Of a stretch of DNA of 51,000 nt, positions 1,955-39,691 are shown piece after piece; the first letter of the stretch is position 1; each line of letters opens with the position of its first letter. A program made the position numbers and the translations under genes. The stretch covers positions 1-51,000 of the forward strand of contig JAGXGG010000104.1 of the NCBI GenBank assembly GCA_024636855.1, given 5' to 3'. Below the pieces are notes generated by a model that saw only the letters and a list, made by a program, of their open reading frames with translations, was not told where the DNA came from and ran no database searches. Source of the DNA: Ignavibacteriota bacterium. Lineage in GTDB: Bacteria > Bacteroidota > Ignavibacteria > Kapaibacteriales > UBA2268.

Positions 1955-3988
1955 ATGGGAAAATTTCAACTAGTATCGAATTATAAACCAGCAGGTGACC
2001 AACCTACAGCTATAAACGAGCTTACGGAAGGTTTGGAAAGGGGAGACCGTGACCAGGTTTTACTAGGTATAACTGGTTCAGGAAAGACCTTTACAATATC
2101 TAATGTTATAGAAAGAGTACAAAAGCCAACTTTGGTAATTTCGCCTAACAAGACTTTGGCCGCACAGCTATATAGCGAGCTAAAGGGTTTTTTCCCTAAT
2201 AATTCTGTTGAGTATTTCATATCGTATTACGATTATTACCAGCCAGAGGCTTATGTTGCTTCTTCTGATACATATATTGAAAAAGACTTCTCTATAAATG
2301 ATGAGATTGACAGACTTCGACTGCGTGCAACTAGTTCTCTTGTTGAGGAGAGACGAGACGTGATTGTAGTTGCTTCGGTTAGTTGTATATATGGTATTGG
2401 CCAAAAAAGTGATTTCAAAGATTTACTTTTCCCTATAAAAGTAGGTCAAAAAATAACAAGAAAAGAATTACTCTATAAGTTACAAGAGTTATATTTTGAA
2501 AGAAATGACTTCGATTTCAAGCGTGGTACTTTTCGAGTAAGAGGTGACGTGATTGATTTAATTCCTGCTTCTCAAATTAAAGAAGGGATTAGAATAGAGT
2601 TATTTGGTGATGAAATAGAGAATATATTCTACATAGATGCTACCACTGGTAAAGTAACTGGAAAAGAGGATTTGACTACTATTTATCCAGCAAAATTATT
2701 CGTGACTAATGAAAACCAGCTTATAAAAGCGATGAAAGATATTAAAGATGAGCTTTATGAACGTTTGAAAGTATTAAGAGCTGAGGATAAACTAGTAGAG
2801 GCTCAAAGGTTGGAGCAACGTACTTTATTTGATTTGGAAATGATGAAAGAAGTAGGGTACTGTTCAGGTATAGAGAATTACTCTATGCACATGGCTGGTA
2901 GGACTTTCGGAGATAAACCTACATGTTTGATTGACTATTTCCCCGATGATTTTATTACGATAATTGATGAGAGCCATATATCTGTACCTCAGATAAAAGC
3001 GATGTACAGTGGTGATAAGAAGCGAAAAACTACTTTGGTAGAACACGGTTTCCGTTTGCCTTCAGCTCTTGAAAATAGACCACTCCAATTCGATGAGTTT
3101 AGAAATACCACGAAACAAACGATATATGTAAGCGCTACTCCATCTGACTATGAGCTAGAGCAATCAGAGGGTGTCTTCGTTGAGCAAATTATTCGTCCAA
3201 CTGGTTTGCTAGACCCACTTATTTCTGTCAGACCTATAGCTACTCAAATTGATGATTTGGTTGGTGAGATTAGAATTAGAATAATGAAAAATGAGAGAGT
3301 ACTCGTAACTACTCTGACTAAACGTATGTCAGAGGATTTATCTGATTATTTATTCAATTTGGATATCAAAGTAGCTTATATTCACTCAGACATTGACTCA
3401 CTAGAGAGAGTAGAGATAATTAGAGATTTCCGTATAGGAGAATACGATGTATTAGTAGGTGTAAACTTATTAAGAGAAGGGTTAGATATGCCTGAAGTAT
3501 CGCTTGTAGCTATTCTAGATGCTGATAAGGAGGGATTCCTACGATCTGCTAGTGCATTACTCCAAACGGCTGGTAGAACAGCTCGTAATGTAAATGGTCT
3601 AGTTATACTTTACGCAGATAGAGTTACAAAAGCAATGAAAGTATTAATAGATGAGACAAATAGACGTAGAGAGATACAATCAGCTTACAATAAGAAGCAT
3701 GGTATTGATCCGAAAACTATTTATAAATCTTTACAAGAGATTCTGGAATCTACTTCAGTAGCAGATGTTCAAAAAGCTAGAAAAGGAAGAATTGCTGTAA
3801 AGGAGAATTTGAAACAAATTGCCTCAGAACCAACTATTGCTTATATGTCCGAAGAACAGAAAACAGACTTACTAGAACAAATGTTTGTAGAAATGAAGAA
3901 AGCAGCAATAAATCTTGATTTCGAGAGAGCAGCTAATCTAAGAGATGAAATAGCAAGAATAAAAACTGATGAGATTGTTAATTCTTAA
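1955..3988 (+). CDS. uvrB: Excinuclease ABC subunit B
   Basis: UvrB is the damage-verifying helicase-like subunit of nucleotide excision repair; it is loaded by UvrA and recruits UvrC. The 677-residue length is normal. Visible motifs: Walker A GITGSGKT at residues 38-45, the tyrosine-rich beta-hairpin around residues 87-100 ([10 protein letters not shown]), the DESH box (IIDESH), helicase motifs including [15 protein letters not shown] and QTAGRTARN, and a C-terminal UVR motif (about residues 632-670) that contacts UvrC. The start [20 protein letters not shown] matches the usual UvrB N terminus. Its last 11 bases overlap the 3' end of the convergent T9SS cargo gene. uvrA lies 2.3 kb away on the opposite strand. 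Confidence 0.98.
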
Positions 3989-16154: not shown

Positions 16155-16958
16155 ATGAATTCGATAGAAAAATTAATAGAAGCTGAAAAAAAGAACGACT
16201 CAATACTTTGTGTAGGGTTGGATATAGTTGATGATAAAATGCCTCGGCAAATAGAAAGAAGTATTGAAGGTATGCTCGAGTTTAACGAAGCAATCATTGA
16301 GAGTACTTCAGATTTAGTATCTTCTTATAAGATTAACTTTGCTTTTTATGAGCAATATGGAAGAAGAGGATACGAGCTATTAGAGAAAACAGTAGCTATG
16401 ATTCCTTCGGATATACATATAATAGCAGATGCAAAGAGGGGAGATATAGGCAATACCTCTGCTGCCTACGCTAAGGCTGTATTTGAAGAGTTAAAATGTG
16501 ATTCGATAACTATTAGCCCTTATATGGGGAAAGACTCTGTAAGTCCATTTCTGGACTATTCAAATAAAATGGTATTTCTGCTTTGTTTGACTTCTAATTC
16601 TGGCTCTATTGATTTTGAAAAAGAGAAAATAGGTGATAAGTACTTATACGAAGTTGTATTGGAAAAATCTATGAAATGGGGCAGTGCTGACAATCTAGGA
16701 TATGTTGTAGGTGCTACTCATCCCGACGAGTTAAGAAATATCAGAACTTTAGCTAAAGATAGATACTTCCTTATACCAGGTATAGGAGCACAAGGTGGAA
16801 GCCCAGATGATGTGATGGATGCAAATAGCTCGGGTCCTTCTATTATTAATTCTTCTAGAGGGATAATTTATGCAGGTGGTAATGAAGAAAAATACGAAGA
16901 TTATATCCGACTAGCAGCTTTAGAATTACGCAACCAATTAAATGAAGCAAGGTATTGA
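16155..16958 (+). CDS. pyrF: Orotidine 5'-phosphate decarboxylase, subfamily 2
   Basis: A 267-residue OMP decarboxylase, last step of de novo UMP synthesis. The type 2 signature DAKRGDIGNTSAAYAKA begins at residue 92 and holds the catalytic Asp-Lys-Asp set. An early GLDIV strand, the NFAFYEQYG substrate-side segment, ITISPYMGKDS and a late FLIPGIGAQGG phosphate-binding loop are all present. No other pyr gene is in the window. Its TGA stop overlaps the TTG start of the DUF2851 gene by four bases. Confidence 0.95.
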   Translation: MNSIEKLIEAEKKNDSILCVGLDIVDDKMPRQIERSIEGMLEFNEAIIESTSDLVSSYKINFAFYEQYGRRGYELLEKTVAMIPSDIHIIADAKRGDIGNTSAAYAKAVFEELKCDSITISPYMGKDSVSPFLDYSNKMVFLLCLTSNSGSIDFEKEKIGDKYLYEVVLEKSMKWGSADNLGYVVGATHPDELRNIRTLAKDRYFLIPGIGAQGGSPDDVMDANSSGPSIINSSRGIIYAGGNEEKYEDYIRLAALELRNQLNEARY

Positions 16959-32138: not shown

Positions 32139-32447
32139 CTATTCCTCATTTGCATTTAATTTTATAGCATCTATTTTTTTGGCTAGTTTGAAGTCTAATT
32201 CAGTTAGACCGCCTGCGTCGTGGGTACTGACGCTTATTCGTACTTTGTTCCACCCATATATTTCAATATTCGGATGGTGATCCATACTTTCTGATATAAT
32301 AGCAACCGAGTTCACGAATCCAATAGCTGATGCAAAATCGGCTGCTACTATTTCTCTTTTAATCTCTTTTCCGTCTTTTTTCCAGTTGACCAAATCTTCT
32401 AATTCGTCATCTACTCTCTCATCATCTAATATTTCTGGTCTTGACAT
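32139..32447 (-). CDS. phhB: Pterin-4a-carbinolamine dehydratase
   Basis: 102-residue PCD/DCoH family enzyme that regenerates quinonoid dihydropterin from 4a-hydroxytetrahydropterin. The hallmark is ESMDHHPNIEIYGWNKV with the catalytic His pair, then THDAGGLTELDFKLA with the third His and the final Asp. No aromatic amino acid hydroxylase is near, so the pterin substrate is open. It sits between trxA (6 bases) and eno (3 bases) in a tight operon. Confidence 0.93.
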   Translation of the reverse strand: MSRPEILDDERVDDELEDLVNWKKDGKEIKREIVAADFASAIGFVNSVAIISESMDHHPNIEIYGWNKVRISVSTHDAGGLTELDFKLAKKIDAIKLNANEE

Positions 32448-32453
32448 TGTATA

Positions 32454-32780
32454 TTATCCCATTAGGGCGTTTAATTTGCTTTGAATTTGTTCTTTAGGAA
32501 CTGCACCAACGATAGTTTCTACTTGTTCGCCACCTTTGAACATCAGGATAGTAGGGATAGAACGTATTCCGTATTGCATAGCAACTTGTTGATTATTATC
32601 TACGTCTACTTTAGCAATCATTGCTTTTCCGTCATATTCTGTAGCTAACTCATCTATGATAGGTGCTATCATTCTACAAGGACCACACCATGCTGCCCAA
32701 AAATCTACTACTACTGGTACATCTGAATTTTTTATTTCTTCTGTAAAATTTGCATCTGTTAAGTGAATTGGTTGAGACAT
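32454..32780 (-). CDS. trxA: Thioredoxin
   Basis: 108-residue thioredoxin: active site WCGPC at 31-35 preceded by VVVDFWAA, the buried Asp near residue 26, the cis-Pro loop GIRSIPTILMF, and the C-terminal VGAVPKEQI. No signal peptide, so cytoplasmic. It is the first gene of the trxA-PCD-eno-phosphohexomutase unit and has an 83-base upstream gap that holds a pair of direct repeats. Confidence 0.97.
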   Translation of the reverse strand: MSQPIHLTDANFTEEIKNSDVPVVVDFWAAWCGPCRMIAPIIDELATEYDGKAMIAKVDVDNNQQVAMQYGIRSIPTILMFKGGEQVETIVGAVPKEQIQSKLNALMG

Positions 32781-32791
32781 TCTGTTCTCCG

Positions 32792-32797
32792 ATTATA
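32792..32797 (-). promoter_or_regulatory. Possible -10 box of trxA
   Basis: On the minus strand a perfect TATAAT lies 11 bases before the trxA ATG with no good -35 in front. It is close to the start codon, so a promoter role would mean a very short leader. Confidence 0.25.
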
Positions 32798-32800
32798 TAT

Positions 32801-32832
32801 TTTGTTATTAAACTTAAAATCTTTGTTATTAA
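32801..32832. repeat. Two 11-bp direct repeats upstream of trxA
   Basis: TTTGTTATTAA occurs at 32801-32811 and again at 32822-32832, exactly 21 bases (two helical turns) apart, in the trxA upstream region. Phased repeats of this kind can be an activator site; no regulator is known here. Confidence 0.45.
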
Positions 32833-32863
32833 GACGATTTTCACAATCGAATTATTTTACTAT

Positions 32864-33391
32864 CTACTCTCTGACAATGTTCTCAAAACTATTTAAAAGT
32901 TTTGTGTAATTTGAGAATACAAAATTAGCTTTATTTTCTGAGAAATCACCTATTAGGATTGTTTTTATTCCTGCTCTTTCACCAGCCATTGCATCGGACT
33001 CACTATCACCCAAGAAAAACGAATTATCTTTATCAATTTTCCATTTGTCAATTGCTTCCAGAAGCATTCCTGGTTCTGGTTTTCTCGTCTTTGAACCACT
33101 GTTAGCAAGATCTGGACAATAGTATATATCATCAAAACTATAACCATATTTTTGAAACAGATTAAATTGCATGAGATTATGAACTTTAGAAAGCTCATCT
33201 TCAGTCATTATACCTTTTCCTATTCCTTGCTGATTTGTGATTATTATTTTCAGAAAACCTAATTCTTCAGTCTTCTGAAATAACTCTAGAAATTCAGGGA
33301 TAAACTCAAATTCATCGTAGCTTTTCACATAACCACCTATCTTTCTAGTATTGACTATCCCATCTCTATCAAAGAAAAAACACTTATTCAT
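32864..33391 (-). CDS. HAD-IIIA phosphatase, GmhB/histidinol-phosphatase-like
   Basis: About 175 residues from the ATG at 33391; an in-frame ATG three codons upstream is less likely and would increase the overlap with the preceding gene. The HAD nucleophile motif is FFDRDGIVN, with IIITNQQGIGKG (motif II), RKPEPGML (motif III Lys) and FLGDSESDAMAGERAG (motif IV). This fits D-glycero-D-manno-heptose 1,7-bisphosphate 7-phosphatase or a relative. The usual zinc loop of Cys and His residues before RKP is reduced to a single Cys (YYCPDLANSGSKTRKP), so the substrate may differ. It overlaps the glycosyltransferase gene by 8 bases. Confidence 0.82.
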   Translation of the reverse strand: MNKCFFFDRDGIVNTRKIGGYVKSYDEFEFIPEFLELFQKTEELGFLKIIITNQQGIGKGIMTEDELSKVHNLMQFNLFQKYGYSFDDIYYCPDLANSGSKTRKPEPGMLLEAIDKWKIDKDNSFFLGDSESDAMAGERAGIKTILIGDFSENKANFVFSNYTKLLNSFENIVRE

Positions 33392-34580
33392 ATAGACCAC
33401 AAACTTCCTTAATTACGGCATCACATTGGTCATAGATTATTTCCCATGAATGTGTTCTGATGATATATTCACGAGCATTTCTACTAATTTTCTCTGATAA
33501 TTCTTTGTCTTTTAGCAATTGAATTACTTTAGCTGCAAATTCTTCTGAGCTTTCAGCTATCATTATTTCCTCACCGTCTGTCGCATAAATCCCTTGATTC
33601 CCAGTAGTAGTAGTGACTATAGGACAACCAGCACTCATAGCCTCAAGTAGCTTATTCTGTATTCCTGTTCCTCCGTAATGTGGATGAACATATACAGCTG
33701 CTTTTTGCAAATATGACACTATTTCTGGAACGTTTGAATGTATTTCTACATCATCATCTTCCAAATTTGAAATAGCTTTCGAAGGATTTGCACCTGCTAA
33801 TACTAATTTAATTTTGGGAAATTCTTTTTTTACTAAAGGCATAATCTCATTTACTAACCTATTTATCATAAGTTCATTAGCCCAAACATCTAATTTCCCA
33901 GTAAAAAGTAAATTCTCACGTTCCTGCTTGGCATCTGGTACGAACTTTTCAACATCAACTCCATTAGACAATAAGCGATAGTTAGCATTTGGATTTAGTT
34001 TCCTCATTAGCTTTATATCATCTTCTGTGACGAAAGTAACAGCATCAAAATAGTTGACTATTTCGGGCTCATATGTACCAAGTTTTTTCCATTCCCAATA
34101 ACGGATTAGCTTTTGCTTTAGATTCTTAGTTCCTTTGTATGATCGCTTTTGATATTCAGTTCTGCAATCTTCAGCCATCAAAATACTAGGAATTTGTGCA
34201 TTTTTTATATATTCGGCAGTCCTCATAAAGAAGGAAAAAGCTATGTCGAAGTGCTTTTCATCTAGTAGTTTATCAACTTCTTCGTGATATTGTTTTTGTT
34301 CATAGTAAAGTATTTCAAGTGGCTTTTTGGACATCAGCTTAGGTAGTGAACTAATACCAGCATTGAAAGGTTTCAATGGAATCACGTGTAAGTCAACACC
34401 CAGTTTTTTAACTGAGTTTTTTAGACTTTCTGTAAATTTCTTCCCTTGAAAGAAAGTAACCAAAGTTACATTATGTTCCTTTGCGAGATGTTTTATAATA
34501 TAATAAGGTTTTACTCTATCTCCACCTATTAGTGGAAAAGGGTATCTCGGTAATAAAAAAAGTATATTCAGTTTCTTCAT
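33384..34580 (-). CDS. Glycosyltransferase family 4
   Basis: 398 residues with the GT-B fold of GT4 enzymes. The N-terminal domain opens ILFLLPRYPFPLIGGDRVKP; the C-terminal nucleotide-sugar domain shows LLFTGKLDVW, the HPHYGGTGIQNKLLEAMSAG acceptor/EX7E region and PIVTTTTGNQGI. Sugar and acceptor unknown; with the adjacent HAD phosphatase it may belong to cell-surface polysaccharide or LPS-like synthesis. It follows the helicase gene by 9 bases. Confidence 0.9.
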   Translation of the reverse strand: MKKLNILFLLPRYPFPLIGGDRVKPYYIIKHLAKEHNVTLVTFFQGKKFTESLKNSVKKLGVDLHVIPLKPFNAGISSLPKLMSKKPLEILYYEQKQYHEEVDKLLDEKHFDIAFSFFMRTAEYIKNAQIPSILMAEDCRTEYQKRSYKGTKNLKQKLIRYWEWKKLGTYEPEIVNYFDAVTFVTEDDIKLMRKLNPNANYRLLSNGVDVEKFVPDAKQERENLLFTGKLDVWANELMINRLVNEIMPLVKKEFPKIKLVLAGANPSKAISNLEDDDVEIHSNVPEIVSYLQKAAVYVHPHYGGTGIQNKLLEAMSAGCPIVTTTTGNQGIYATDGEEIMIAESSEEFAAKVIQLLKDKELSEKISRNAREYIIRTHSWEIIYDQCDAVIKEVCGLYE

Positions 34581-34589
34581 TGCAATCTC

Positions 34590-36584
34590 CTAATCGTCGA
34601 TTTCTTCGTCTTCTTCATCTTCTGTTAATATGAATTTCTCCAGAAATTCATCACTTATATCAGCTATAAATCTTGATGGTTCACTTAAAACCATCCCACT
34701 CTCCCTATCAAAAATACCAAAAGGATAAACAATATATAAATTATCTTTCGCTCGAGTAACTGCAACATAAAACAATCTTCTCTCTTCTTCAACAGAATCT
34801 ATTGTATGTGTAGATTTTGCAGATGGGAATTTTCCTTCTGTAGCCCAAATTAAAAATACTACTTTCCATTCTAATCCTTTGGCAGAGTGGATAGTGGAGA
34901 TAGTTAAGTATTCATCTTCCTTAGATTCGGGTTCCAATTCATCCAATGAATTAATTGGTGGATCTAATGCCATATCGTTTAAGAAAGTTGGCAAATCATT
35001 ATATTGATCAGTTATCTGCAAGAAAGTCTCAATATCACGCCAACGTTTATTGACATTATCATATTTCTCATCCATATACTCTTTGTAATAGAATGCTAAC
35101 TCTGATGCGGCGTAAGTAATATCAGTGGGGTCGAAATTCTTAGCTACTAATTTGAATAGATTTGTTATTCCTACGTTTTTGTTCAAAGTAGGAAGTACAT
35201 CTTTGTAATTACTTATATTTAGTCTATTATCTGATATATTGTCTATTATCTTTCTTGTGGTAGCTGGACCTACGCCATCTACTAGCATAAGTACTCTTTG
35301 CCATGCTACCACATCTTTGGGATTGAAAAGTAATCTCATATAGGAAATCAAATCTTTGATATGAGCTGTTTCTATGAATTTCATACCACCAAATTTTACA
35401 TAAGGTATATTAGATTTATTAAGGTCGATTTCCAAATCAAATGCGTGATAACTAGAGCGGAATAGCACTGCTATATTCTCTAGCTCTATACCCTGCTCTC
35501 GTAGCTCTAGTATCTGCTGTACTACGAATTCGGATTGTTGTCTTTCTCTATTAGCTGCTACTAGGTATGGTTTATCACCTATTCTATCCCTACTAAATAA
35601 TTTCTTCTCATATTTGAAAGCAGCTTTATTTATTACTTCATTTGACAAATCAAGTATCTGTTCTGTACTTCTATAGTTTTGTTCTATCTTATAAATCTCA
35701 CATTTCTCAAAGCTTTCTGGAAAGAAGAATATATTCTGATGATCAGCACCTCGGAATGAATAAATCGACTGTGCGTCATCGCCAACGGCCATTATATTAT
35801 TATCCACACCACCGAGTAGTAGTATTATTTCGTGTTGTATTCTATTAGTGTCTTGATATTCATCTACCATTATGTGTTTGTACATACTAGTGATTTGCTT
35901 TCTAGCATCGGGGTTTTCTTTTAATAATTCAAGAAGATATAGCAACAAATCATCATAATCCATTACATTAGCAACTTTCTTATACTTATGATAATCAATA
36001 AAAATAGTATTAATCTGATCTTCGTACTCTACATATTTGGGATAATATTCCTCTAATGTTGCTAATGTACTTTCTCTCTTGTTAGTTGAAAGAGATAATA
36101 TTTTTTGAAGTGTATTTTTCTTAGGGAATCGCTTTTTGATACTAGGGGGGAGGTGTCGCCCTCTAATCAAGTCAATAGTATCTGCCGCGTCTTGTTGATC
36201 GATTATACTAAATTCCTGTGAGAATCCTATTTGCTTATAGTATTGCTTTAGCATCTTCAAGGCAAATGAGTGGAAAGTCCCAGTCGTGATCTTACCAGCA
36301 CGAGTATCAAGTAGTGATGTAATCCTAGATAGCATTTCGGCAGAAGCTTTTCTTGTAAAAGTAAGTAGCAATATACTTCGTGGGTCTATACCATCTTCGA
36401 TTAACCTAGATACTCTATAGACAAGAGTTCTGGTCTTACCAGAGCCTGCACCAGCTAATACAAGAGCAGCACCTTTGTTATGCATCACAGCTTTGTATTG
36501 CTCTTCATTCAAACTAGTTTTGTAATCAACTGAGTACTCTCTAGTCGTTAGACTGGTCTTTTTCTTTAATCTAAGTTTTTTCAT
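34590..36584 (-). CDS. UvrD/PcrA-type superfamily 1 DNA helicase
   Basis: 664 residues with all main SF1A motifs: Walker A LVLAGAGSGKTRTL, motif II MVDEYQDTN, motif III GDDAQSIYSFRGAD, motif IV EQNYRS, motif V STIHSAKGLEWKVV and motif VI VAVTRA. It translocates 3' to 5' on single-stranded DNA and may act with the Uvr proteins or in recombination and replication restart. A basic N-terminal extension of about 25 residues and an acidic C-terminal tail (TEDEEDEEIDD) flank the core. It is shorter than typical PcrA (about 720-750). It lies 19 bases after the ion channel gene and is preceded by an in-frame TAA that would end a read-through of that gene. Confidence 0.93.
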   Translation of the reverse strand: MKKLRLKKKTSLTTREYSVDYKTSLNEEQYKAVMHNKGAALVLAGAGSGKTRTLVYRVSRLIEDGIDPRSILLLTFTRKASAEMLSRITSLLDTRAGKITTGTFHSFALKMLKQYYKQIGFSQEFSIIDQQDAADTIDLIRGRHLPPSIKKRFPKKNTLQKILSLSTNKRESTLATLEEYYPKYVEYEDQINTIFIDYHKYKKVANVMDYDDLLLYLLELLKENPDARKQITSMYKHIMVDEYQDTNRIQHEIILLLGGVDNNIMAVGDDAQSIYSFRGADHQNIFFFPESFEKCEIYKIEQNYRSTEQILDLSNEVINKAAFKYEKKLFSRDRIGDKPYLVAANRERQQSEFVVQQILELREQGIELENIAVLFRSSYHAFDLEIDLNKSNIPYVKFGGMKFIETAHIKDLISYMRLLFNPKDVVAWQRVLMLVDGVGPATTRKIIDNISDNRLNISNYKDVLPTLNKNVGITNLFKLVAKNFDPTDITYAASELAFYYKEYMDEKYDNVNKRWRDIETFLQITDQYNDLPTFLNDMALDPPINSLDELEPESKEDEYLTISTIHSAKGLEWKVVFLIWATEGKFPSAKSTHTIDSVEEERRLFYVAVTRAKDNLYIVYPFGIFDRESGMVLSEPSRFIADISDEFLEKFILTEDEEDEEIDD

Positions 36585-36603
36585 TCTGTTATAGTTTATA
36601 GCC

Positions 36604-37401
36604 TCAATTAAAGCAAAATTTTGCGTTTATTTCTGACGTTTTAGTCTGACAATTAGCACATATTTTTAATTCTGATTTATTGCGTTCATTCTCTTTCAAA
36701 GTTTTCATTTCTGTAGATACTATACCAGTTGGTACTGCAATTATAGCATAACCCATTATCATAATGATTGATGCTATAAATTGTCCAAGATTAGAAGAAG
36801 GTGCTATATCACCATAACCTACAGTCGTGAGCGTAACTATTGCCCAATAGATACTTCTAGGAATACTTGTAAACCCAGATTCTGCTGATTCTATCATATA
36901 CATGAGTGTACCCATTACAGTAACCATAGATAGAACAGCTAATAAGAACACGAGAATTTTCTTCTTACTGGCTTGCATAGCTCTCTTTAATTCACCTGCC
37001 TCCGTAATGAAACCTATAAGCTTTAGCACTCTGAATACTCTAAGCAGACGAAGTGTCCTAATAGTTATTAGTGCAGCGGATTTGGTATTGAAGAATAGTC
37101 CGAAATATGTTGGAAATATGGATAGGAAATCTACTATTCCAAAAAAACTGAATATATATTTCAATTTATGTTCTGATATATATATTCTAGCAAAATATTC
37201 TAATGTGAAAAGAACAGTAAACCCAAATTCTAAATTTGTAAAAAGATTTCCGTATTGACTTCTTAGTTCGGCCACACTATCCAACATCACTACTATAACA
37301 CTAGCGATGATAGCAACTATAAGTATTATATCAAATAACTTACCAGCAGTTGTGTCAGCTTCGAAAACTATGTGATAAAGTCTATTTTTAAATGAATTCA
37401 A
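36604..37401 (-). CDS. Voltage-gated potassium-channel-like ion transporter with truncated zinc ribbon
   Basis: 265-residue six-helix channel subunit. S4 carries regularly spaced arginines (ITIRTLRLLRVFRVLKLIGF, about 112-131), and the pore loop has the K+ filter TTVGYGDIAP at 192-201. After S6 a cytoplasmic tail ends in a zinc-ribbon start: C248, C251 and C263 (ICANCQ ... KFCFN). The stop is TGA exactly where the fourth ribbon Cys is expected, and the codons after it read Gly-Tyr-Lys-Leu then TAA, a normal ribbon end. So the gene looks freshly truncated by a Cys-to-TGA change, or it is read through. TGA acts as a stop in several other genes here. Confidence 0.88.
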   Translation of the reverse strand: MNSFKNRLYHIVFEADTTAGKLFDIILIVAIIASVIVVMLDSVAELRSQYGNLFTNLEFGFTVLFTLEYFARIYISEHKLKYIFSFFGIVDFLSIFPTYFGLFFNTKSAALITIRTLRLLRVFRVLKLIGFITEAGELKRAMQASKKKILVFLLAVLSMVTVMGTLMYMIESAESGFTSIPRSIYWAIVTLTTVGYGDIAPSSNLGQFIASIIMIMGYAIIAVPTGIVSTEMKTLKENERNKSELKICANCQTKTSEINAKFCFN

Positions 37402-37497
37402 TTTTACTATTCTGTTATTCAGTGAAAACTAATATGCAATGATAAAAATTATTCTTAACTTATGCTGATAAATTATTAAAATGACGGAAAAAACTAT

Positions 37498-38379
37498 ATG
37501 AAAAAGTATATAACTTTAATCGCAACTGTGTTTTTATTTATAATCAACTCAAATGCTGATGCCCAATTACTTGCAAAGTATACAGCTAAAGAGGGATTAG
37601 CCACAGCAGTAAACTTTACGAAATCTGATTTGAATTTTCAAACTCCTGTTTTAGTGGCAGTCGCTACTATGAAGCAAGAAGTTGAATCTTCTGGTATTAA
37701 TGTCAAGCCAGGTATGAGCATAACTAATGGTAAGTCAGAAGCTTGGGTATATGTAATACTAGATGAAGAAACAGAAGAAACAGCAGTAGTAGGAGTAATA
37801 AAGATTTTTGTTGCTTTTCAAGCACTGGACCTTTCTAATCAAAGTGGGTTCGAAGTTCCTGGATTTGTATCTGTACCTATTACTGATAATTGGATAGATT
37901 CTGAAGAACTTGTAGACGATATTTCTGGGAACAATACATATCAGAACTACATTAACGCAAATCCAACTGCTGAGCCTCAAACAAGTGCTTTATCAGTTAA
38001 TACTACTAACTCAATGTATATGATGAATTATCCATACTGGATAAATACTTTTGGTGAGAATGAAGATTTAGTATGTTATACAGATGCTTTGACGGGTGAA
38101 ACTGATTGTCAGACTATTTCAAATGTAAAATATGTTGAATCTATTTCAAATTCATTTGCTCCAAATCCTGCCAATAACTATATAAATATAAAATTAGACA
38201 ACGGAACAAGCAAATTTAACAATATGAGAATTGTCGATATATTTGGGAATATTGTTCATCAATCATCTAATCCTAGTATTACTCAAATAGACGTTACAAA
38301 TCTTGCAAACGGCGCTTACACAATAATGTATGAGTATAAAAACAAAATTGAAACTGAAAAATTATTAATACAAAAATAA
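37498..38379 (+). CDS. T9SS-secreted protein of unknown function
   Basis: 293 residues with a signal peptide (MKKYITLIATVFLFIINSNA) and a C-terminal T9SS sorting domain from about residue 218 (SFAPNPANNYINIKL, MRIVDIFGNIVHQSS, LANGAYTIMYEYK, ending KLLIQK). The 190-residue mature region is beta-rich and matches nothing I know; it has a pair of Cys residues in DLVCYTDALTGETDCQ that could form a disulfide. It is divergent from the channel gene (96 bases) and 13 bases upstream of glyA, so the two may be co-transcribed. Confidence 0.83.
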   Translation: MKKYITLIATVFLFIINSNADAQLLAKYTAKEGLATAVNFTKSDLNFQTPVLVAVATMKQEVESSGINVKPGMSITNGKSEAWVYVILDEETEETAVVGVIKIFVAFQALDLSNQSGFEVPGFVSVPITDNWIDSEELVDDISGNNTYQNYINANPTAEPQTSALSVNTTNSMYMMNYPYWINTFGENEDLVCYTDALTGETDCQTISNVKYVESISNSFAPNPANNYINIKLDNGTSKFNNMRIVDIFGNIVHQSSNPSITQIDVTNLANGAYTIMYEYKNKIETEKLLIQK

Positions 38380-38392
38380 AAACTGGTAAATT

Positions 38393-39691
38393 ATGTACGA
38401 TAATATTAAAATAAATGATCCCGAGTTATTCCACGCTATAACGGAAGAAAGCAGCAGACAACATCAAAAATTAGAATTAATAGCTAGTGAGAATTTCGTC
38501 TCAGATGCTGTACTAGAAGCAGCTGGATCTGTACTTACTAATAAATATGCTGAAGGATACCCAAATGCTCGCTACTATGGTGGATGCGAATTTGTAGATT
38601 TGGCAGAAAACCTAGCAATAGAAAGAGCAAAAAAACTATTCGGTGCTGAATATGCAAACGTACAACCTCATAGTGGTAGTACTGCAAATATGGCTGTTTA
38701 CTTCTCGTTCATCCAACATGGTGATAAGGTTATGGGACTTAGCTTAGAGCACGGAGGTCACTTGACTCACGGTTCTAAAGTTAATTTCTCGGGTATGTGG
38801 TTCAACTTCGTTCCTTATTTCTTAGATGAAGAGGGGAGAATAGACTATAACCAAGTAGAAGAACTTGCCAAAAAAGAAAGACCGAAGTTAATAACTGTCG
38901 GCGCTTCAGCATATTCTAGAAACATAGATTATAAACGATTCAGAGAGATTGCTGATTCTGTTGGTGCTTTCCTATTTGCGGATATAGCTCACCCAGCTGG
39001 ATTGATAGCAAAAGGTCATTTGAACTCGCCAATTCCACATGCTCATATCGTAGCTACTACCACTCATAAGACTCTTCGTGGACCTCGTGGTGGACTTATA
39101 CTAATGGGTAAAGATTTCGAAAATCCATTTGGTATAGTAGCTCCTAAATCAGGTAGAGTGAAGAATATGAGTGAGATAGTTAACTCACGAGTTATGCCGG
39201 GTATGCAAGGTGGTCCACTTATGCATATAATAGCTGCAAAAGCTACTGCATTTAAGGAATCTCTTACTGATGATTTCACTGATTATACTGCACAGGTTAT
39301 CAAAAATGCACATGCTTTATCAACTGCACTTGCGGCAAAAGATTATAATATAATGTCTGGCGGTACGGATAATCACCTTATGCTTATTGACTTGCGTAAC
39401 AAGGGTTTGACAGGTAAGAAAGCTGAGAATACACTAGACGAAGCTGGTATGACTTGTAACAAGAACTCTGTACCGGATGATGATCAATCACCTTTGGTGA
39501 CATCTGGTATACGTCTCGGTACACCAGCACTAACTACTCGTGGTATGAAAGAAGATGATATGCGAACTGTAGCTGATTTCATAGACAGAGCTATATCAAG
39601 CGTAGATAATGAAAGTGCAATAGATACTATAAAGCATGAAGTACACGAATTCACAAGTGGTTTCCCACTTCATGTTCCTGTAAAAATGTAG
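38393..39691 (+). CDS. glyA: Serine hydroxymethyltransferase
   Basis: 432-residue PLP enzyme interconverting serine and glycine with one-carbon transfer to tetrahydrofolate. Visible: [16 protein letters not shown] near the N terminus, [10 protein letters not shown], the PLP Asp-His segment [11 protein letters not shown], the Schiff-base lysine K226 in [13 protein letters not shown], and [15 protein letters not shown]. Start ATG at 38393 gives a normal N terminus. It is followed by a strong terminator of the repeat family. Confidence 0.98.

Follow-up and report, generated by a model that had tools for sequence, protein, structure and literature searches.

Potassium Channel Gene With an In-Frame TGA

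The window analyzed here (the whole stretch of 51,000 nucleotides from the genome of an Ignavibacteriota bacterium) carries on its minus strand a K+-channel-like gene of the Ion_trans family (36604–37401), which encodes 265 residues, starts with TTG and ends at a TGA. The same residue opens the corresponding ORFs in two other genomes of the genus, G002 and G003. The protein combines a match to the Ion_trans profile of Pfam (PF00520, 109.5 bits, residues 21–239) with the TVGYGD K+ selectivity filter, which identifies it as a voltage-gated K+-type channel, and phmmer matches it to chains of Kv-type channels. Its C-terminal sequence before the stop is CANCQTKTSEINAKFCFN, followed directly by the TGA. 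A UvrD/Rep-type helicase gene lies downstream on the same strand (34590–36584), with its start at 36584, 19 bases past the TGA and 4 bases past a TAA (36589–36591, minus strand). This TAA is presumably the ancestral end of the channel gene, and the same codon is TAA in G003 and TAG in G002.

The TGA (36604–36606, minus strand) occupies the codon of the fourth cysteine of a C-terminal zinc ribbon, residue 266 of full-length relatives, and shortens the channel by five residues. The tail reads CANC...KFCFN, then TGA, then in frame GGC TAT AAA CTA (GYKL) and the TAA. The ribbon region has the pattern CxxC-x11-Cxx[C] and extends from Cys248 (codon 36658–36660) through the relic codons for GYKL (36592–36660, minus strand). 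The remaining cysteines are residues 248, 251 and 263; thus, instead of the two CxxC knuckles with four encoded ligands of a four-cysteine ribbon, the gene has three cysteine codons and a TGA. These results agree with the preliminary description, which had placed an in-frame TGA at the fourth ribbon cysteine (the coordinates are right, and homologues have Cys there), had counted three of the four cysteines, and had noted that the codons after the TGA look like a normal ribbon end, as the similar tails of relatives indicate.

With the TGA read as Cys, all Pfam zinc-ribbon matches of the tail stayed below their cut-offs (the best was PF13240, 20.3 bits vs. a cut-off of 25), and the tail without a Cys at this position had no Pfam zinc-ribbon match at E-values up to 1. 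Because the intact tails of G003 (L033, no Pfam ribbon match at E-values up to 0.01) and G002 (L032, ribbon matches below cut-off only) also fail to reach the cut-offs, Pfam is a weak witness for this ribbon, and the label "zinc ribbon" is therefore based on the conserved four-cysteine pattern and not on a family score. Judging from the missing ligand, a ribbon left with three metal ligands out of four has probably lost tight zinc binding.

Between the channel gene and a divergent gene that begins at 37498, 45 consecutive bases (37425–37469) are identical in the source genome (G000), G003 and G002, which contrasts with the wide third-codon-position differences in the neighboring genes. Such identity makes this block a likely shared promoter or operator. 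A near-direct repeat (TGATAAAAATTATT and TGATAAATTATT) was recognized by eye within it. The product of the divergent gene (37498–38379) has a Por_Secre_tail sorting domain and is only 67% identical to its G003 orthologue; the genes beside it (32139–36584 and 38393–39691) show 89–100% identity to G003.

Codon at the Fourth Ribbon Cysteine in Related Genomes

The genus search covered four genomes, one per species, namely the source genome and three congeners (G001, G002 and G003), whose channel proteins are about 84–90% identical to the source protein. At the site of the TGA, the congeners carry TGT (G003), TGC (G002) and TGC (G001, in a partial gene), and their proteins end with CGEKL, CGERL and CGEKL, respectively, before the stop. 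Among the residues encoded after the TGA in the source gene, Gly and Leu are as in all three congeners and Lys as in two; the Tyr of GYKL corresponds to Glu in the congeners, at a position that is variable in the family.

A class-wide search of 391 genomes revealed matches at 1e-20 in 59 of them (63 rows). Among the 37 rows that reach query residue 266 or beyond, an internal stop is present in the source gene alone. Internal stops were also seen in the rows of G006 (one TGA) and G090 (one TGA and one TAA), which are divergent channels (35 and 34% identity) with alignments that stop at query residues 242 and 247, short of the ribbon end. In 30 homologue loci from this search, the codon is TGC in 23, TGT in 5 and TGA in one, the source gene; the remaining locus (L186) was unread as its filter motif is absent, and its row in the class search shows no stop.

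Short C-terminal four-cysteine ribbons are common among the Kv-type channels that are homologous to the source protein. The C-x2-C ... C-x2-C ribbon, whose last cysteine is encoded by TGC or TGT, was found in 38 of the 41 loci from named genomes (L032–L072), a set that shares at least the three congeners with the 30 loci. The exceptions are L047, in which the spacing of the first knuckle differs, L071, which is ribbon-less, and L064, in which the filter motif was not found. According to record titles, the ribbon-tailed channels are mostly from Bacteroidota lineages, with single ones from Acidobacteria, Spirochaetaceae and Deltaproteobacteria. Many weaker class matches end short of the ribbon and may lack it; the ribbon characterizes the nearer homologues.

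The TGA is private to the source genome among the genomes compared, with a sense codon in the close relatives and a stop in the source genome only. The idea that the family naturally ends here was rejected, since relatives carry a Cys codon and continue, and so was a conserved recoding site, since no readable relative has a stop there. Comparison with homologues had been suggested as a check in the preliminary description, which left recent truncation and read-through as options; the Cys codon in the three congeners and in 28 of the 30 loci supports the former. We consider it probable that a young nonsense mutation on the species' own branch replaced the Cys codon at the fourth ribbon ligand by TGA, the tail being dispensable. 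The change looks young because a ribbon is still recognizable in the three remaining cysteines and in the codons that follow the stop.

Private Nonsense Codons and Consensus Quality

The TGA might instead be a consensus error or the allele of a minority strain, with the real gene encoding Cys; the caution about a sequencing error in the preliminary description still holds. The source genome is a draft assembly in 110 contigs and, as with the congeners, probably a metagenome bin; a TGA that is private to one assembly and followed by codons that still form a ribbon end is compatible with this explanation. We regard it as unlikely, yet deserving of weight, in view of the following comparisons.

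When 354 ORFs of G003 were compared with a 400,625-base sample of G000, 85 passed the thresholds of 75% identity and 80% cover, and for the other 269 no match reached them. Two of these 85 orthologues contain in-frame stops in G000, namely the channel TGA and one TAG. The TAG replaces GAG (Glu) of G003 at residue 48 of a 189-residue protein, presumably isochorismatase-like, whose frame is otherwise intact (L145, positions 15343–15903 of contig G000:C7, minus strand). In the reverse comparison (336 ORFs of G000 against G003, 85 passing), no in-frame stop was detected in G003. That G000 has another private nonsense codon, in a gene that is otherwise intact, and G003 has none speaks for an error or a minority allele, and it weighs against a nonsense mutation in that this distribution fits errors as well as mutations; two of 85 vs. 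none of 85 are too few to call a difference, and the two private nonsense codons may be either mutations or assembly errors. Because the second one is a TAG at a glutamate, which is beyond any UGA-based recoding, the private nonsense changes are not confined to UGA or to Cys codons.

The pattern of substitutions argues against frequent errors. In eight same-length genes common to G000, G003 and G002 (8634 bases; three of the 11 window ORFs matched in G002 were omitted because of length differences or as a shadow ORF), the numbers of changes at first, second and third codon positions are 70, 14 and 399 on the G000 branch, and 65, 21 and 345 on the G003 branch. Third-position changes dominate on both (399 of 483 and 345 of 431), so random errors must be rare in these 8.6 kb, and because the profile of G000 resembles that of G003, nothing points to a consensus that is poor overall. 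Also against an error, 37 window ORFs have a match in G003, and in 32 of these the last residue is the same in both genomes. In another (32864–33400) the end is off by one residue, and the three that remain besides the channel (24584, 36902 and 41274) are shadow ORFs overlapping longer genes on the opposite strand. In the channel gene itself, 98 of 235 codons differ synonymously from G003, indicating that the two species are well separated, and the remaining three cysteines are intact. A nonsense mutation much younger than the split between G000 and G003 would fit this picture, the five codons concerned being too few for a test.

Decoding of UGA

RF2 was detected above the cut-off in all four genomes of the genus. 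Furthermore, prfB in G000 and G003 (L124 and L125) shows the arrangement AGGAGG ... CTT TGA C, which we take to be the classical site of release-factor-sensing frameshifting, and which indicates that RF2 reads UGA as a stop. In a 400,625-base sample of G000 that includes the window, 336 non-overlapping ORFs reach 100 codons or more, and 49 of them end in TGA. The genes for CutA1 (883–1212) and OMP decarboxylase (16155–16958) are closed by TGA as well, as had been noted for cutA and pyrF in the preliminary description. A genome-wide reassignment of TGA was thus rejected given RF2, these two genes and the use of TGA as a stop, and the earlier exclusion of such recoding was correct.

The selenocysteine genes, for which a search had been proposed together with the read-through option, were sought in the four genomes of the genus (completeness is 96.43% for G000 and listed as 100 for G002 and G003). 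For selA, no match was obtained at E-values up to 0.001 in any of the four genomes (the control search gave matches in four of 14 known genomes, one of them over the cut-off). For selB, all four have strong matches below the cut-off (192.8 bits in G000 vs. a cut-off of 242.25); the control gave matches in all 14 genomes, two of them over the cut-off, and the sub-cut-off matches are presumably EF-Tu and other translation GTPases. Matches to selD are weak and below the cut-off in all four (38.4 bits in G000 vs. a cut-off of 125). In this way, none of the four genomes has SelA, SelB or SelD over the cut-off.

The tRNA-Sec model RF01852 gave 10 matches in G000, all below the gathering score. ARAGORN reported no TCA anticodon, and no tRNA-Sec was found, in 31 loci (29 tRNA loci and two RF01852 loci) of an incomplete tRNA set, for which 150 of 239 candidates were scored and which lacks Ala and Ile tRNAs. 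In G003, one RF01852 match over the cut-off (48.5 bits) lies within a cluster of five tRNA genes (L073, contig G003:C3, about 2259–3414). This match was rejected as tRNA-Sec, as ARAGORN reads it as tRNA-Ser with the anticodon TGA. There is also no hairpin after the TGA, since stretches of 72 and 52 nt starting from the TGA show no better folding than shuffled sequences (z = +1.02 and +0.89), which bears out the earlier remark that no clear SECIS hairpin follows directly. The 121 nt around the TGA fold little better than shuffles (z = -0.70).

These results lend no support to read-through of the UGA as Cys, Trp or Sec, which the preliminary description had offered as its other option. Bacteria in general are known to show some low-level leakiness at UGA, tRNA-Trp (CCA) and tRNA-Cys (GCA) are present, and GYKL and the TAA follow in frame, all of which would allow a near-cognate tRNA to produce a useful fraction of full-length channel. 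However, the relatives read have no stop there and hence no conserved recoding site, no structure follows the TGA, no UCA tRNA was found in the incomplete set, and the genome encodes RF2 together with the frameshift site, all of which makes this reading very unlikely. Its more specific form, in which near-cognate decoding by tRNA-Cys or tRNA-Trp would give tetramers mixing chains with and without a closed ribbon in a ratio set by the RF2 level, appears more improbable still. Selenocysteine was rejected and has practically no chance of being correct, although exchanges between Cys and Sec classically show up as a UGA at a Cys position, given unmatched selA, selB and selD below cut-off, sub-threshold RF01852 matches, no TCA anticodon among the 31 loci of the incomplete set, no hairpin after the codon and, to our knowledge, no case of a structural zinc ligand as a Sec site. 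In passages returned by full-text searches for selenocysteine in Ignavibacteria and for near-cognate read-through of UGA, nothing concerned this channel gene.

Probable Truncation of the Channel and Comparison With Known Systems

If a nonsense change on the branch of the source species converted the fourth ribbon cysteine codon to TGA, translation would end there through RF2 and the last five residues (Cys-Gly-x-x-Leu type) would be lost; the membrane channel with its pore is complete. The tail would then be sufficiently dispensable for such an allele to exist. A real allele of this kind would mean that the terminal ribbon can be lost, a small clue to a modulatory tail and to a pore that works without need of the ribbon. 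A TGA in place of a cysteine codon does not have to mean recoding, and most of the question is answered here by comparing three congeners and looking for the selenocysteine genes.

The finding is ordinary. Like lineage-private nonsense mutations and C-terminal truncations in general, the TGA is private and stands in a frame that is intact on both sides, and there is no difference in kind. As for the ribbon-tailed channels, a full-text search combining zinc ribbon with voltage-gated potassium channel returned no description of such a channel, the passages of PMC3581485 (on SHOCT domains) that were returned being silent on it, and a search combining Ion_trans with zinc-ribbon likewise gave no description. 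With the voltage-gated K+ channels of the Ion_trans family, for example the archaeal KvAP (presumably entries 1orq and 2a0l), the source protein shares the Ion_trans match, the TVGYGD filter and the phmmer matches to Kv-type chains. In contrast to these channels, the relatives of the source protein add a short C-terminal zinc ribbon, of which the source copy is without the last five residues. The ribbon-tailed homologues (L032, L033, L068 and others) have the same architecture as the source protein and differ in carrying a Cys codon where the source gene has TGA.
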